IMG/VR virus record: IMGVR_UViG_3300044997_001301
Location: 1 to 31,167 of that record
Source: a virus
DNA length: 31,167 nucleotides
Reading direction: 5' to 3' (one strand)
This document shows positions 1-29,643 of the stretch, one piece after another; within the stretch, counting starts at the first letter, position 1; each line of letters opens with the position of its first letter. Under the pieces are notes generated by a model that did no database searches, was not told the DNA's origin, and saw only the letters and a list, made by a program, of their open reading frames with translations. The position numbers and the translations under genes were made by a program.

Positions 1-511
1 CTTCATCTTCTACTTCGTCTTCACCTAAAACTGCTTTCAACGCATCACACAAGGCAGCTGCGTGCTCACGAGGTAAAGTAAGAGTTACTTCACCTTCATC
101 GCTACCATCCTCTTCACCGGGTAGACCAAGGGCCTCAGCATCGTTAACTTCCTGATCAACGGGCTGACCACCCATAACATCCTCATATAGTTTATCAAAA
201 ATAGATTTGCTCATAAAATTATTTATTGTTTGTACTTCTGTTTTTTCAAGATTTTGTGAGAATTTCTTTGGTTCATAAAAATTATCTTTTTTAGCTGTCT
301 CTGGATTGATTAAATCTTTCTTAAAATTATCAGCATTCTCTGGGCCAGAGTTTTTCGGAAGAAATGCTTTAGAATCGACTTTAGCTTCAACAGGTTTTTT
401 ATCTGTAGCTAGTTTAAATGTATCTTTAGGAGGAAAAACCGATTTCTTTTCCTCAATAACAGACTTTTCATATACATCTCCCATTTCTACTAGCGTTCTG
501 ACCTGGTTCAT
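1..511 (-). CDS. Acidic-ended protein of unknown function, C-terminus outside window
   Basis: The reading frame runs from an ATG at 511 down to base 1 without a stop, so about 170 residues are visible and the C-terminus is missing. The first 99 residues are Lys-, Glu- and Pro-rich and look disordered. Residues from 100 on begin MSKSIFDKLYEDVMG and lead into a Glu/Asp-rich stretch around a helix-like segment (PREHAAALCDALKAVL), ending in alternating Glu/Asp. I do not recognise the family. An acidic tail and a position near the terminase are reminiscent of small prohead-core proteins such as T4 gp67, but that is a guess. It is divergent from the terminase with only 11 bases between starts. TAAATA lies 6 bases before the ATG on the minus strand. 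A second in-frame ATG at 214 has the same motif 5 bases upstream, so a shorter product is possible. Confidence 0.7.
   Translation of the reverse strand, partial: MNQVRTLVEMGDVYEKSVIEEKKSVFPPKDTFKLATDKKPVEAKVDSKAFLPKNSGPENADNFKKDLINPETAKKDNFYEPKKFSQNLEKTEVQTINNFMSKSIFDKLYEDVMGGQPVDQEVNDAEALGLPGEEDGSDEGEVTLTLPREHAAALCDALKAVLGEDEVEDE
220..225 (-). promoter_or_regulatory. TAAATA late-promoter-like motif before an internal ATG at 214
   Basis: On the minus strand the sequence reads AATAAATA, then ATTTT, then ATG at 214. The same 16 bases (AATAAATAATTTTATG) precede the tail tube gene at 5216. Here the motif lies inside the open frame that starts at 511, so it would drive a nested, in-frame short product. 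Confidence 0.5.
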
Positions 512-517
512 ATTAAG

Positions 518-523
518 TATTTA
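518..523 (-). promoter_or_regulatory. TAAATA late-promoter-like motif for the 511 minus-strand gene
   Basis: The minus strand reads CATAAATA, six bases, then ATG at 511. The motif overlaps the first base of the divergent terminase frame at 523, so the two transcription units share their control region. Confidence 0.5.
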
Positions 524-2238
524 TGTTATATATGCCAAAAAAACTAGAAAGTCAATTTTATTTAGGTAATCAAAACCTACCTACCTTAGAAGCTACATTT
601 GATTATGAAGCACATCCAGAATGGGTTGAAGACATAGCAAAGTGTAGAAAAAATATTTTATTTTTTGCTGAGAACTTTTTTTATATTACTAATCTTGATG
701 AGGGAAAAATGAAGATTAAGCTTCATTCCTATCAGAAAAAAATACTTAGAAGTTTAAGAGATAATAGATTTGTATGCTTATTAGCAAGTCGTCAAATTGG
801 TAAAACTACTTTAATGACAATATACGCTTTATGGATTGCTAGCTTTTTTGAAGATCAACGTATTCTTATTGTAGCAAACAAAGAGCAAACTGCTATTAAC
901 ATTTTTAAGAGAGTTCGTTTAGCTTATGAGAAACTACCAAACTACCTCAAACCAGGAACTGTAGAATACGGTAAAACATCAATGTCTTTAGGAAACGGAT
1001 CTAGCATTGGAATTTCGACAACTAGTAGTGATGCAGGTAGAGGTGATAGCTGTAATGTTCTTATTTTAGACGAGTTGGCATTTATTGACAATCATCTTGT
1101 CGTACAATTTTGGAGTTCAGTATATCCAATTATTTCGTCGTCTAAAAAGTCTAAAATATTTGTTGCGTCAACTCCAAACGGTACTGGTAATTTATTTCAC
1201 GATTTATATACTGGCGCTGTAGAAGGTAAGAATGATTGGCATGCAGAAAAAGTTGATTGGTGGGAGTTTCCTGGACGTGATGAGGTATGGAAAGAAAAAA
1301 CTATAAGGACTTTAGGAAGCAGAGAGGTGTTTGATCAGGAATTTGGTAATGTATTTTTGCAGACCGGTGAAAGCGCTTTGGATGAAAAATTATTTGAAGA
1401 AATGAAAGAGACATGCTCGGATCCAAGATTTGTTTTTGAGGAAGGAAAATATTTACTTTGGGAAGAGCCTAGTAAGGACAATTTATATGTTGTTGGTGTT
1501 GATATTAGTGAGGGGGTAGGCGAGGCTGCAAGTGTAGTGCAGATTTTTGATATTACAGATTTAAGAGAAATAAAACAAGTAGCAATTTATCATAATCGCG
1601 AAATAAGCCCTTACAATTTTACTACAAAACTTTTTGAAATCTTACAACACTGGGGCTCTCCGCCTGCACTAATTGAAAGAAATAATTGCGGTGCACAAGT
1701 TGTTGATCAATTAAAAAATGTTCATCACTATGAAAATATTATTTCTTACGGAGCTAAAATAAACGGGAACAAATATAATAAATTAGGAGTACAAGCTCAT
1801 ACCAACTCCAAATACAAAGGAGTAATGAATATGAGATATTGGTGTAATGAAGTTAAAACATTAAAAATATTTGATTTACAAACATTAAACGAATTAAAAT
1901 CCTTTGTTAGATATCCTAATGGTACTTGGGCTGCAAAGCCTGGAGCTGATAATTGGGATGACCGAGTTATGAGTTTGGTATGGGCACTAATGATACTAGA
2001 AAACGATCTTGTTGAAAAATACTACGAAATCGAACAGTTTGATTTAAATAGAAAACCCCTTAAACTAAAATCTCTCGATTTTGGTATTAAGCATTTTATA
2101 AACCCTACATCTATCTATTCAAATGAAAAGGAAAATTTAGGGGGCAATCCTCTTCCTATATACATTCCTAGTACAGAAAATACTTCTGCAAATGATTTGG
2201 CTGATTTAGAAGCAGAAGGTTGGAGACGTTTAGGTTAA
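523..2238 (+). CDS. Terminase large subunit (T4 gp17 family)
   Basis: This is the packaging motor: an N-terminal ATPase that pumps DNA into the prohead and a C-terminal RNase H-fold nuclease that cuts the concatemer. Visible motifs, counted from 523, are the Walker A SRQIGKTT (89-96), Walker B VLILDE (179-184, with D183 and E184) and the coupling motif ASTPNGTG (from 215). The nuclease acidic residues are D327 in VDISEG, E385 in ALIERN and D479/D480 in NWDDRVMSLV. Length is 571 residues against about 610 in T4, so it appears complete. The start is uncertain: ATG at 523 (MLYMPKKL) or ATG at 532 (MPKKL). Neither has TAAATA at the usual distance; TAAGTA at 514-519 lies 3 bases before 523. The small terminase is not next to it, as it would be in T4; a candidate lies at 15392-15868. 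Confidence 0.96.
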   Translation: MLYMPKKLESQFYLGNQNLPTLEATFDYEAHPEWVEDIAKCRKNILFFAENFFYITNLDEGKMKIKLHSYQKKILRSLRDNRFVCLLASRQIGKTTLMTIYALWIASFFEDQRILIVANKEQTAINIFKRVRLAYEKLPNYLKPGTVEYGKTSMSLGNGSSIGISTTSSDAGRGDSCNVLILDELAFIDNHLVVQFWSSVYPIISSSKKSKIFVASTPNGTGNLFHDLYTGAVEGKNDWHAEKVDWWEFPGRDEVWKEKTIRTLGSREVFDQEFGNVFLQTGESALDEKLFEEMKETCSDPRFVFEEGKYLLWEEPSKDNLYVVGVDISEGVGEAASVVQIFDITDLREIKQVAIYHNREISPYNFTTKLFEILQHWGSPPALIERNNCGAQVVDQLKNVHHYENIISYGAKINGNKYNKLGVQAHTNSKYKGVMNMRYWCNEVKTLKIFDLQTLNELKSFVRYPNGTWAAKPGADNWDDRVMSLVWALMILENDLVEKYYEIEQFDLNRKPLKLKSLDFGIKHFINPTSIYSNEKENLGGNPLPIYIPSTENTSANDLADLEAEGWRRLG

Positions 2239-5191: not shown

Positions 5192-5204
5192 TTAATCTAA
5201 AGAA

Positions 5205-5210
5205 TAAATA
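5205..5210 (+). promoter_or_regulatory. TAAATA late-promoter-like motif for the tail tube gene
   Basis: AATAAATA, ATTTT (5 bases), then ATG at 5216. It is identical in sequence to the motif before the nested start at 214 on the minus strand. Confidence 0.55.
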
Positions 5211-5215
5211 ATTTT

Positions 5216-5764
5216 ATGGCAGACGTAAATCAACTTATAACAGACTTTTACAGAGTAGCGGCAACAAGAGAATTTGCACGTGATTTTAATTTTAGAGTCC
5301 TTTCTATAAATACCGGCGGAGCAAGCACAGTTACATATGATGAGAATGATCTTGTTTATGTAAAAACAGCTACATTACCGGAAAGAGCTATAACAAATAT
5401 TCCCGTACCTTACATGGGGTTAAATTTTAACTTACCCGGCAATGCAACTTACCCCGGCAGTGAAGCCTATACATTAACGTTTTATGCAGATGCGAATTCT
5501 CAGATTCGTCAGAAATTTGAACAATGGTCAACCGATATTTTTGATGATTCTAATTCTACTGGTAATTATTTTGCTCCTAAACAAACAGCTATTATAGATC
5601 TAGTACAACTAGATAATCAAATGAATAAAGTCGCACAATATCAATTGGTTGGTGTTTCTGTAAGAAGTGTCGGGCCCTTAGCTTATAATATAGCTGAAGG
5701 CACAGGAAATACTATAGAATTTACAGCTACTGTTTCGTATCATTATTGGAGAAAACTATCTTAA
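5216..5764 (+). CDS. Tail tube protein (T4 gp19 family)
   Basis: The inner tube subunit that sits inside the sheath and carries the DNA. At 182 residues it is close to T4 gp19 (163). The pattern fits the family: an N-terminal helix (ITDFYRVAATREFARDF), a first strand (NFRVLSINTG), a loop ending PERAITNIPVPYMGLNFNLPG, and YTLTFYADANSQIRQKFEQW, which resembles the T4 stretch WTVTVMNDEAHDARQKFVDW. It ends with the strand IEFTATVSYHYWRKLS, as T4 gp19 ends with a strand finishing in LDYWE. It lies directly after the sheath, as in T4. Confidence 0.93.
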   Translation: MADVNQLITDFYRVAATREFARDFNFRVLSINTGGASTVTYDENDLVYVKTATLPERAITNIPVPYMGLNFNLPGNATYPGSEAYTLTFYADANSQIRQKFEQWSTDIFDDSNSTGNYFAPKQTAIIDLVQLDNQMNKVAQYQLVGVSVRSVGPLAYNIAEGTGNTIEFTATVSYHYWRKLS

Positions 5765-26800: not shown

Positions 26801-26957
26801 TAAAATAATTAACTTAATTAATACTATGTATAAATTAGCACCCGATGCCAATACTATAAATTTTTCAAGCCCTCTTTCCTCTTCATACTTAACATATAAC
26901 ATTCTAGGAAACAATCCTGGATACGTATCAAACGGAGCATTTGTTTTCGGGATATAA
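23817..26957 (+). CDS. Very large virion structural protein, family not recognised
   Basis: This 1046-residue protein lies in the gp8/gp10 area of the T4 order but matches neither by eye. The N-terminal 200 residues are helical ([20 protein letters not shown], then [20 protein letters not shown] and [20 protein letters not shown]), which could be a dock onto the baseplate. From about 530 on the sequence becomes beta-rich with Tyr, Ser and Gly, with two Cys in [19 protein letters not shown] and one in [13 protein letters not shown]. It ends with [17 protein letters not shown]. One base separates its stop from the adhesin ATG, so the two are probably co-translated. A wedge-to-fibre connector is my inference from size and position. 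Confidence 0.8.
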
Positions 26958-26958
26958 T

Positions 26959-29643
26959 ATGGCATATTACGATCTCACATCTAATAACGACACGTCTGTG
27001 TTGTATAAGCTAGATACTCTAGATACAACAAGAGATGTTATGGTTTCATTTGAGTATAAATGCGATGGTAGCGGGATAAATGGTTCAGAAGGGTTTTGCT
27101 TGTTTTTTGTTGATGCATGTATTGATTTTCTCTCAGGAGGAAGCCCAGGCCCAGGGCTTAGCTATACAAGCCTTACAGCTCTATCAGCTTCATCATTAGT
27201 TTTTTTTAATGGAATAAATAAAAGTGCATTAGGTATAGGTTTTGATATAACAGGTAACTTCGGTTCAGATATATTACAGCTTGATGGATATTCAATTCCT
27301 AGACCTAATACGATTAGTCTTAGGGCCGGTGAAGATAGAAATTTTAGCTTATTATACAGGACAGAAAATTTAGCATCTAGCGCATTTAATATGCCTTTAA
27401 GTATATATCAACAATCGGTTAGTAGTATATATAATGTATTTAGAGTGAGATTAACAGATCTGGGCGAAAGAGTATTAATAGATCATAACAATGGAAGCGG
27501 GTTTAAAAATTATTTAAATTTTAGGCTACCCTATAGACTTCCTGTTACTGTTTTTCCCTGTTTAGGGTTTGCAAATGGACCGGATATAGCAAATTTATAT
27601 ATTCGTAATTTTAATTTAAATTCTTTTATTCTTACTCCTACACCTACAGTAACACCTACAAGAACGATTACACCTACACCTACGCAAACACAAACACCTA
27701 CTACTACACCTACAATTTCTATAACGCCAACTAGAACTAATACACCAACCGTTACACATACACCCAATATTACTCCTACGATAACGCCTACAGCTTCTAT
27801 TACACCTACAGTAACGCCTACAGTTTCCATTACACCAACAATTTCTATTACACCTACGATAACACCTACAGCTTCTATTACACCTACGATAACGCCTACA
27901 ATTACGCCTACAGTTTCTATAACGCCTACAATTACGCCTACAGTTTCTATAACGCCTACAATTACGCCTACAGTTTCTATAACGCCTACAATTACGCCTA
28001 CAGTTTCTATAACACCTACTATCTCTATTACTCCTTCAATTACACCTACAATATCTATTACCCCTTCAATTACACCTACTATTACTCCAACCATAACTGA
28101 TACTCCTCTTCCTCCCCCTATAACACAAACACCTACACCGACAATATCACTTACTCCATCTGTAACAGTCACATGTACGCCTTCAATAACACCAACCATT
28201 ACACCCACTACATCAGTTACGCCTACCGTCACTCCTTCTTTAACACCTACATCCTCTGTTACGCCTACTGTAACAGTTACCCCAACATCTTCTGTAACAT
28301 CATCCGTTACCCCCACAATTACACCGACGTTAACACTAACACCAACAACAACAGTAACGCCTACTATCACTCCCACGATATCTATTACTCCTTCAATTAC
28401 ACCGACAATATCTATTACTCCTTCAATTACACCTACAATTACTATAACACCTACAATTACTATAACACCATTTTTATATAAACTATCTGGTCCTGGTATT
28501 AAGACACAGACAGACCAAGAGCTCACCATAGCTGCTATTGACAATAATTCAACACTCTACTTTAACTCAGGCCCTTCTTCTATTACTTCTGAATCAACTA
28601 TGATTTTGAAATATCAAAATCAAGTATTAATGTATGTTGTGTACGACTATTCTCGTGACGGAACTACGTTCGGATTTTCACCTACATCAGCAGATACCGT
28701 ATATTTTAATGTTTTTGCAGAAACTGCTTACAATTTCCAACCTCCAACACCTACGCCTTCTCTTACACCAACAGTTACCCCCTCCATTACACCGACTATC
28801 ACTAATACACCTACTCAAACACCTACAGTTACACAAACGCCGACTGTCACTGATACACCTACTCAAACACCTACAGTTACACAAACGCCGACTGTCACTG
28901 ATACACCTACTCAAACACCTACAATTACACAAACACCAACAAATACCCCCACAGTAACGCCTACCGTAACATTAACAGTCACACAGACACCAACAATTAC
29001 ACCAACTCTAACACAAACCCCTGATGTTACTCCCACACCTACAGTAACTCAAACTAGAGTACCGGTTGAAATATTAGTAGACTTAGGATTAAGTACAGAT
29101 CAGACCACTCTAGATTCAAATTCAAAGTACTGGAATAATATTACAGAGATTGTATCTGATATTAACAATTTAGTAGACACTACAAATACATCTACAGGGT
29201 TTGGTTTAAGTGCTGACACGTATAATGCTGCCGGTGCACCCTCTAACCCCGGACTTGAAACCCCCGATACTTTTTATTTGGGTAGTCTAGCTATTCAATC
29301 TGCAACAGAGGACTATATTTATAACAGTTCTTTTATTACCTTAGAATTTTACAATCTTAATACTAATAATCTTTATAATTTAAGTTTATTTGGTTCTTCT
29401 TCTGCAAAATTAGTAAGTGAAACAGAATATTCTGTTACTTTTGGTAGCGGTACAAGCTCTTATTCAGTACAGACTACCGGACCAGGTGCAGGTATACCAG
29501 TACCTACAGTAAGCGCTAATAATTATAATATATTTAGATTAGATAATTTAACACCCACCATTGGCGGTAGAATAACTATTATTGCTTCTTTAAGTTCAGG
29601 AACAGAAACTCTCATAAATGCTATTAAATTAACTAGTAGATAA
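26959..29643 (+). CDS. Modular adhesin with lectin-like head and Thr/Pro-rich stalks
   Basis: The 894 residues divide into five parts. 1-220 looks like an L-type lectin/concanavalin-fold domain ([51 protein letters not shown]). About 224-503 is a Thr/Pro repeat of [13 protein letters not shown] type. 503-593 is a small domain ([14 protein letters not shown] to [11 protein letters not shown]). About 595-700 is a second Thr/Pro tract. 701-894 is a beta domain ([49 protein letters not shown]) of a type I recall from secreted bacterial carbohydrate-active proteins. The ATG at 26959 is preferred to an in-frame TTG at 26941. It has no signal peptide. It is probably a tail fibre or host-surface binding protein; the adjacent glycosyltransferase suggests glycosylated stalks. 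Confidence 0.85.
27901..28013 (+). repeat. 30-base tandem repeat, nearly four perfect copies
   Basis: Copies begin at 27901, 27931, 27961 and 27991. Each encodes [10 protein letters not shown]. The first three are identical; the last diverges from about 28014. Perfect DNA identity, including silent sites, points to recent expansion by slippage or unequal recombination. Confidence 0.92.
28024..28083 (+). repeat. 30-base repeat ([10 protein letters not shown]), two copies, first location
   Basis: Copies begin at 28024 and 28054, differing at a few bases. The same unit reappears at 28381, about 357 bases downstream. Confidence 0.85.
28381..28440 (+). repeat. 30-base repeat ([10 protein letters not shown]), two copies, second location
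   Basis: Copies begin at 28381 and 28411 and match the 28024 pair almost exactly, which suggests a duplicated segment. It is followed by two copies of an 18-base unit at about 28441-28470. Confidence 0.85.
28741..29061 (+). repeat. Second Thr/Pro-coding tract
   Basis: About 320 bases encode a [16 protein letters not shown]-like series, richer in Gln and Asp than the first tract, linking the small middle domain to the C-terminal domain. Confidence 0.88.
28811..28930 (+). repeat. 48-base tandem repeat, about 2.5 copies
   Basis: Copies begin at 28811, 28859 and 28907. The first two are identical over the full 48 bases (16 codons: [16 protein letters not shown] in one phase); the third breaks down after about 20 bases. 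Confidence 0.88.

Follow-up and report, generated by a model that had tools for sequence, protein, structure and literature searches.

In the C/Nu3 arrangement of phage lambda the scaffold is encoded inside the protease gene, a late gene, as an N-terminally truncated product nested in the same frame. Phage T4 offers further instances: for gene 17, the terminase, RefSeq annotates shorter gp17 forms with the remark 'internal transcription and in-frame translation of gene 17', while genes 49 and 21 each carry a second, shorter in-frame CDS, that of gene 21 being noted as internal translation initiation. Late transcription in T4, for its part, starts from promoters with TATAAATA at positions −13 to −6 of the RNA start, as given in PMC1524935; the T4 late sites listed in PMC2988020 have A at −13 in nine of fifty, with A/T-rich DNA downstream; and the late promoter motif stated for S-PM2 in PMC2984593 is NATAAATA.

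We analyzed a window of 31,167 nucleotides, the whole of the stretch taken from the IMG/VR virus record IMGVR_UViG_3300044997_001301. On its minus strand a frame that begins at ATG 511 stays open as far as the edge of the window (170 aa, with no stop in view in the ORF listing), and ATG 214 lies in that same frame, TAAATA ending 6 nt before the former start and 5 nt before the latter, so that the layout claimed in the original prediction was confirmed on the record (Table 1). The identity which that prediction had noticed between the inner start and that of the tail tube gene was likewise recovered: the 16-mer AATAAATAATTTTATG has exactly two copies in the record, at 212–227 on the minus strand and, at the tail tube start, at 5203–5218 on the plus strand. 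The outer part, which had been described as Lys-rich and disordered, is Lys-rich and is predicted to be mostly disordered except for one N-terminal helix, but is charge-balanced, with 18 K+R versus 17 D+E, which balance corrects the earlier description.

Table 1. Features of the nested gene and of its divergent neighbor at the edge of the window.
Feature	Position	Strand	Remarks
Outer putative late promoter TAAATA (CATAAATA)	518..523	−	6 nt before ATG 511
Long product from ATG 511	2..511	−	gene cut by the window edge; about 300 aa in relatives; family profile match E 3.3e-82
Outer part, 99 aa, Lys-rich	215..511	−	mostly disordered (predicted), one N-terminal helix; purifying selection
Inner putative late promoter AATAAATA (T4-type NATAAATA)	220..227	−	−13 to −6 of the inner ATG; part of the reading frame (codons ATA AAT A..)
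Inner nested gene from ATG 214	2..214	−	predicted leaderless; acidic C-terminal product; gene cut by the window edge
Terminase large subunit (gp17), divergent neighbor	532..2238	+	phrog_2, E 1.5e-48

Complete relatives of the long product measure 294–311 aa, the full gene being present in 12 of the 13 loci of the first relative set and cut by a contig end in the other one, and the inner product comprises some 175–226 aa in those relatives with the stop in view. A Walker-A-like motif of the terminase was found divergently upstream in 46 of the 55 loci having at least 700 nt of upstream sequence, the motif search being negative in the other nine.

Relatives were sought in two scans with peptides of the inner part as the search patterns, the promoter never being part of a pattern. 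The first scan matched 120 relatives, 80 of them listed; 79 of the listed viral-contig loci and the window make up the 80 genes counted, and in all 80 the inner ATG is joined in frame to an upstream open stretch, with TAAATA exactly 5 nt before it. One of these (L058) offers only 12 upstream codons before the contig ends, and a further locus, L042, was left out of the counts, its site and fusion being in frame and its frame breaking a few codons past the inner start. Dereplication at 90% DNA identity reduced the 80 genes to 59 clusters, and among these matches every one of the 59 has ATAAATA unchanged at −12 to −6, counted from the inner ATG, position −13 being T in 34, A in 21, C in 3, and G in 1. 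The second, held-out scan, run from divergent members, matched 348 relatives, and 34 loci on contigs absent from the first set, several of them near-copies of one another, were read among the 80 matches listed; again, every one of those 34 possesses both the in-frame upstream open stretch and the motif. There the spacing from TAAATA to the ATG is 5 nt in 31 loci and 8 nt in 3, all three of one lineage.

At the outer starts, TAAATA occurs at most 25 nt upstream of the ATG in 53 of the 58 examined and TAAGTA in the other 5. In seven of the 34 held-out loci there is no outer ATG; in each of those the outer frame begins with GTG and has TATAAATA directly upstream. The check which the original prediction had proposed, conservation of both starts in relatives, thus came out in its favor, with the inner ATG in every relative examined and the outer start either ATG or that GTG; and the case that would have spoken against it, a relative in which the outer and inner parts are separate genes, was looked for and did not occur among the relatives read. 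Two in-frame starts with a single stop are conserved among the relatives read.

The inner motif agrees with the NATAAATA octamer of T4-type (gp55) late promoters and, because it spans −13 to −6 as those promoters do, the predicted RNA start is the A of the inner ATG itself, in which circumstance the mRNA of the short form would probably begin exactly at its start codon, without a leader. That the motif is a T4-type late promoter with its predicted +1 on the inner ATG is a point absent from the original prediction. The likeness to T4 extends to the A/T-rich downstream DNA and to a gp55-type late sigma factor, encoded in 16 of the 17 long records of relatives (E 7e-24 to 4e-29); the gp45 sliding clamp was detected in 3 of those 17 with phrog_223, which profile may be too narrow. 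This leaderless geometry is predicted from promoter spacing; as the three held-out loci with 8 nt carry 3 nt more, the exact coincidence of ATG and +1 is not universal.

Where the nested gene departs from T4 is in having the motif within a coding frame and abutting the start codon. In the T4 late region, which holds gene 17, none of the 34 listed starts—internal starts not being among those—has TAAATA 4–7 nt upstream, and 22 of the 34 have a Shine–Dalgarno tetramer; the same placement of TAAATA was found at 0 of 22 starts in S-SM1 and 0 of 18 in phiM9. Within the window, by comparison, 12 of 23 gene starts have it (the outer start counted, the inner one not), versus one with a Shine–Dalgarno tetramer, the genes in this comparison being mostly structural and chosen by the analyst. 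From 2236 to 23811 in the window TAAATA stands 5–6 nt before many starts, which disposition makes leaderless late transcription across the structural genes probable. HTVC008M, a cultured T4-like phage of Pelagibacter (L140, L157), has TAAATA 4–7 nt upstream at 6 of 39 starts over two stretches, so that the layout may be testable in an isolate.

This same near-fixed placement, 5–6 nt before many starts together with the scarcity of Shine–Dalgarno sequences, is what would be expected if TAAATA were instead an A/T-rich, non-Shine–Dalgarno translation-initiation element, the short protein then arising by internal initiation on the long mRNA. The octamer, the variable −13 position, and the spacing equal those of a T4 late promoter, however, and gp55 is encoded in relatives; moreover, the distances between motif and outer start are spread over 3–13 nt, and before the capsid gene AATACTAATTTT lies far upstream of a start that, by eye, has AAGGAG-like sequences, as for a promoter followed by a leader. 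We accordingly hold translational initiation at the motif to be unlikely, even if it is the most serious of the alternatives. With its AATACTAATTTT well upstream of the start, the capsid gene also indicates that a promoter need not adjoin the start codon in these phages. In the gp23 leaders (minus strand; L133:6840-6945, L132:6685-6790, and L127) that element recurs in a CCTGAAT...GGTCGA context, and the AAGGAG-like site before the start in some members makes this, again by eye, a candidate conserved 5′ UTR; inverted repeats before gp23 revealed no clear common hairpin. In one relative, a short ORF between gp21 and gp22 (L132:5586-5801) shows TAAATA ahead of an ATG that lies in frame as codon 16 of the longest frame; this ATG could be a second nested start or simply the true start.

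To return to the preferred reading, in which a late promoter and a start codon coincide inside the gene, both parts of the frame appear to be translated, since the median dN/dS over 12 sequences was 0.13 for the outer part (65 usable of 66 pairs) and 0.15 for the inner (60 usable). This purifying selection on either side of the junction bears on whether only the short or only the long protein is functional, the other start being a relic of gene fusion, for which possibility one may cite the variable length of the outer part, 92–122 aa in most relatives and 335 in L079. Against such a relic stand, in addition, the promoter motifs at both starts family-wide, a frame that runs open across the junction in all the relatives read, and an inner promoter whose synonymous sites stay invariant even where protein identity has fallen to 38%; we therefore judge it quite improbable.

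Internal promoters that serve the genes downstream are common in phages, and in this instance the inner promoter might be there for the genes that come next—in L003, a 114-aa ORF and then gp14 (head closure)—with the Met at +1 being incidental. Of the 56 representatives that extend far enough, however, 54 show a perfect stem that contains GC, with T5 or longer after it, no more than 87 nt past the stop, versus 0 of 1,120 mononucleotide shuffles, and in all 56 a fresh TAAATA, closely followed by ATG or GTG, precedes the next gene. With a terminator and a new promoter motif preceding that gene, the inner promoter need not serve it, and with the ATG at the same in-frame place in all the loci read, we consider the explanation by downstream genes highly improbable.

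The bases of the motif are also singular as codons. All 58 aligned genes have ATA as the motif Ile codon and AAT as the motif Asn codon, whereas elsewhere in these genes ATA makes up 17% of the Ile codons (27% in the outer part) and AAT 60% of the Asn codons (70% in the outer part); these counts are taken over related sequences and hence are not independent trials. Conservation in at least 50 of the 59 sequences singles out 40 codon columns, and of these only the motif ATA, the motif AAT, and one Lys AAA are without synonymous change. In the window AAAA occupies −30 to −27 of the inner ATG (241-244, minus strand), which bases are invariant or nearly so (Lys AAA in 58 of 58) and are not common to the 39 other gene starts compared. 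That Ile-Asn-Asn/Thr before the Met was kept for the protein alone, with TAAATA a by-product, accords with an Ile-Asn invariant in all 53 aligned proteins, but protein conservation fails to explain the use of a minor Ile codon throughout, with ATT and ATC absent from that position, and this is to us the least credible of the readings.

Nor is the combination of an inner start with the motif a matter of chance, from which it is far removed. We took ORFs of 120 codons or more, drawn from the window, the cluster representatives, and four further stretches, and counted in them 1,324 in-frame ATGs more than 30 codons past the first; TAAATA stands 4–7 nt upstream in 56 of them, namely at 55 instances of the nested site and in 1 other gene. 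At 422 first ATGs, the distance to TAAATA peaks at 5 nt (42 starts) and 6 nt (35 starts).

The original prediction had also invoked capsid assembly, by analogy with the scaffold inside the lambda protease gene. The locus does resemble C/Nu3 in having a nested, in-frame, truncated late product; the outer part, however, matches no family in Pfam, PHROGs, or NCBIfam, and no protease match was obtained. Protease gp21 (Peptidase_S77) and capsid gp23 occur in 11 of the 17 long records each, close together and far from the nested gene, and in the single record where the scaffold was tested, a gp22-like one lies between the two. We therefore rejected a scaffold or protease identity for the nested gene: as an identity the lambda analogy fails, since the protease, scaffold, and capsid genes sit elsewhere in a cluster of their own. 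Two in-frame products remain the best reading, and this part of the original prediction has strong sequence support in the inner ATG, the motif, and the in-frame fusion found in every relative examined. The T4 counterparts share the common C-terminus of the two forms (gene 17) or the second, shorter in-frame CDS (genes 49 and 21); yet the terminase is a different gene, and the gene 49 and 21 proteins are unrelated to it, their annotation being without a promoter built into the internal start.

As for the protein itself, Pfam, PHROGs, and NCBIfam gave no usable match, nor did the PDB sequences; tblastn against isolated phage genomes returned nothing usable, one search giving 7 chance-level matches only; and the 7 pattern matches in bacterial genome contigs include no relative of the nested gene. 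The family profile reached a best E of 0.38 against the T4, HTVC008M, S-SM1, phiM9, and RM378 stretches, and the small-terminase profile phrog_445 had no match anywhere, controls included. AlphaFold2 on 53 sequences gave a mean pLDDT of 54.8 and a pTM of 0.14, with short helices predicted at 3–21, 104–113, 120–127, and 148–163. The region common to both forms consists of a KSIFDKLYEDVM helix, an acidic stretch, a second helix, and a conserved Gly/Lys-rich tail, and the inner part is acidic (48 D+E versus 25 K+R in L016). Our guess would be that the gene encodes an acidic accessory protein, late and for the most part disordered, which belongs to the virion or acts in head assembly; that the outer part is an extra module on only some copies of the protein is likewise a guess. 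Elsewhere in the window, the plus-strand ORF at 26941-29643 contains a long, low-complexity, Thr/Pro-rich repeat region.

Taken on the sequence evidence, which comprises a conserved nested start in frame together with its promoter motif, purifying selection on either part, a terminator, and the late sigma gene of the relatives, one late gene very probably gives rise to a long protein and to a shorter form without the first hundred or so residues. We propose that a T4-type late promoter before ATG 511 would drive the long protein, and that a second late promoter, written in frame as the codons ATA-AAT-A.., would yield a second mRNA beginning with the inner ATG itself, which leaderless message would then be translated into the N-terminally truncated protein; both RNAs would end at one intrinsic terminator. 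The RNA 5′ ends, the leaderless translation, and the accumulation of both proteins are what we infer from those features, and we have good confidence in the scheme as a whole: one late unit transcribed from two start points, with a leaderless short mRNA and a shared terminator. The gene would thus be a nested, in-frame late gene of the kind known in T4 (genes 17, 21, and 49), what is new being the coincidence of promoter, codons, and leaderless start, the last of these predicted. A literature search, mostly of papers available outside subscriptions, returned no paper dealing with the nested gene or with late transcripts of T4-like phages that lack a leader.

The locus thereby offers a clean, strongly conserved dual-coding promoter, whose bases are at once codons and a late promoter with its predicted +1 on a start codon, and it draws attention to a late protein family for which Pfam, PHROGs, and NCBIfam, the solved structures, and the genomes of isolated phages offered no usable match. 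A gene caller allowing one start per frame would annotate the long product only. On balance we favor, with some reserve, a wider account in which an uncultured T4-like branch moved its late promoters onto the start codons, with the result that the late program became in large part leaderless, and in which this fusion of promoter and start codon made, at the present locus, a gene within a gene, where seven bases would serve both as codons of the long protein and as the promoter for the leaderless mRNA of the short one, and have been kept throughout the lineage. The finding suggests that late transcription is leaderless in a widespread and uncultured group of T4-like water phages, unlike in T4 itself, where none of the starts compared has that layout.
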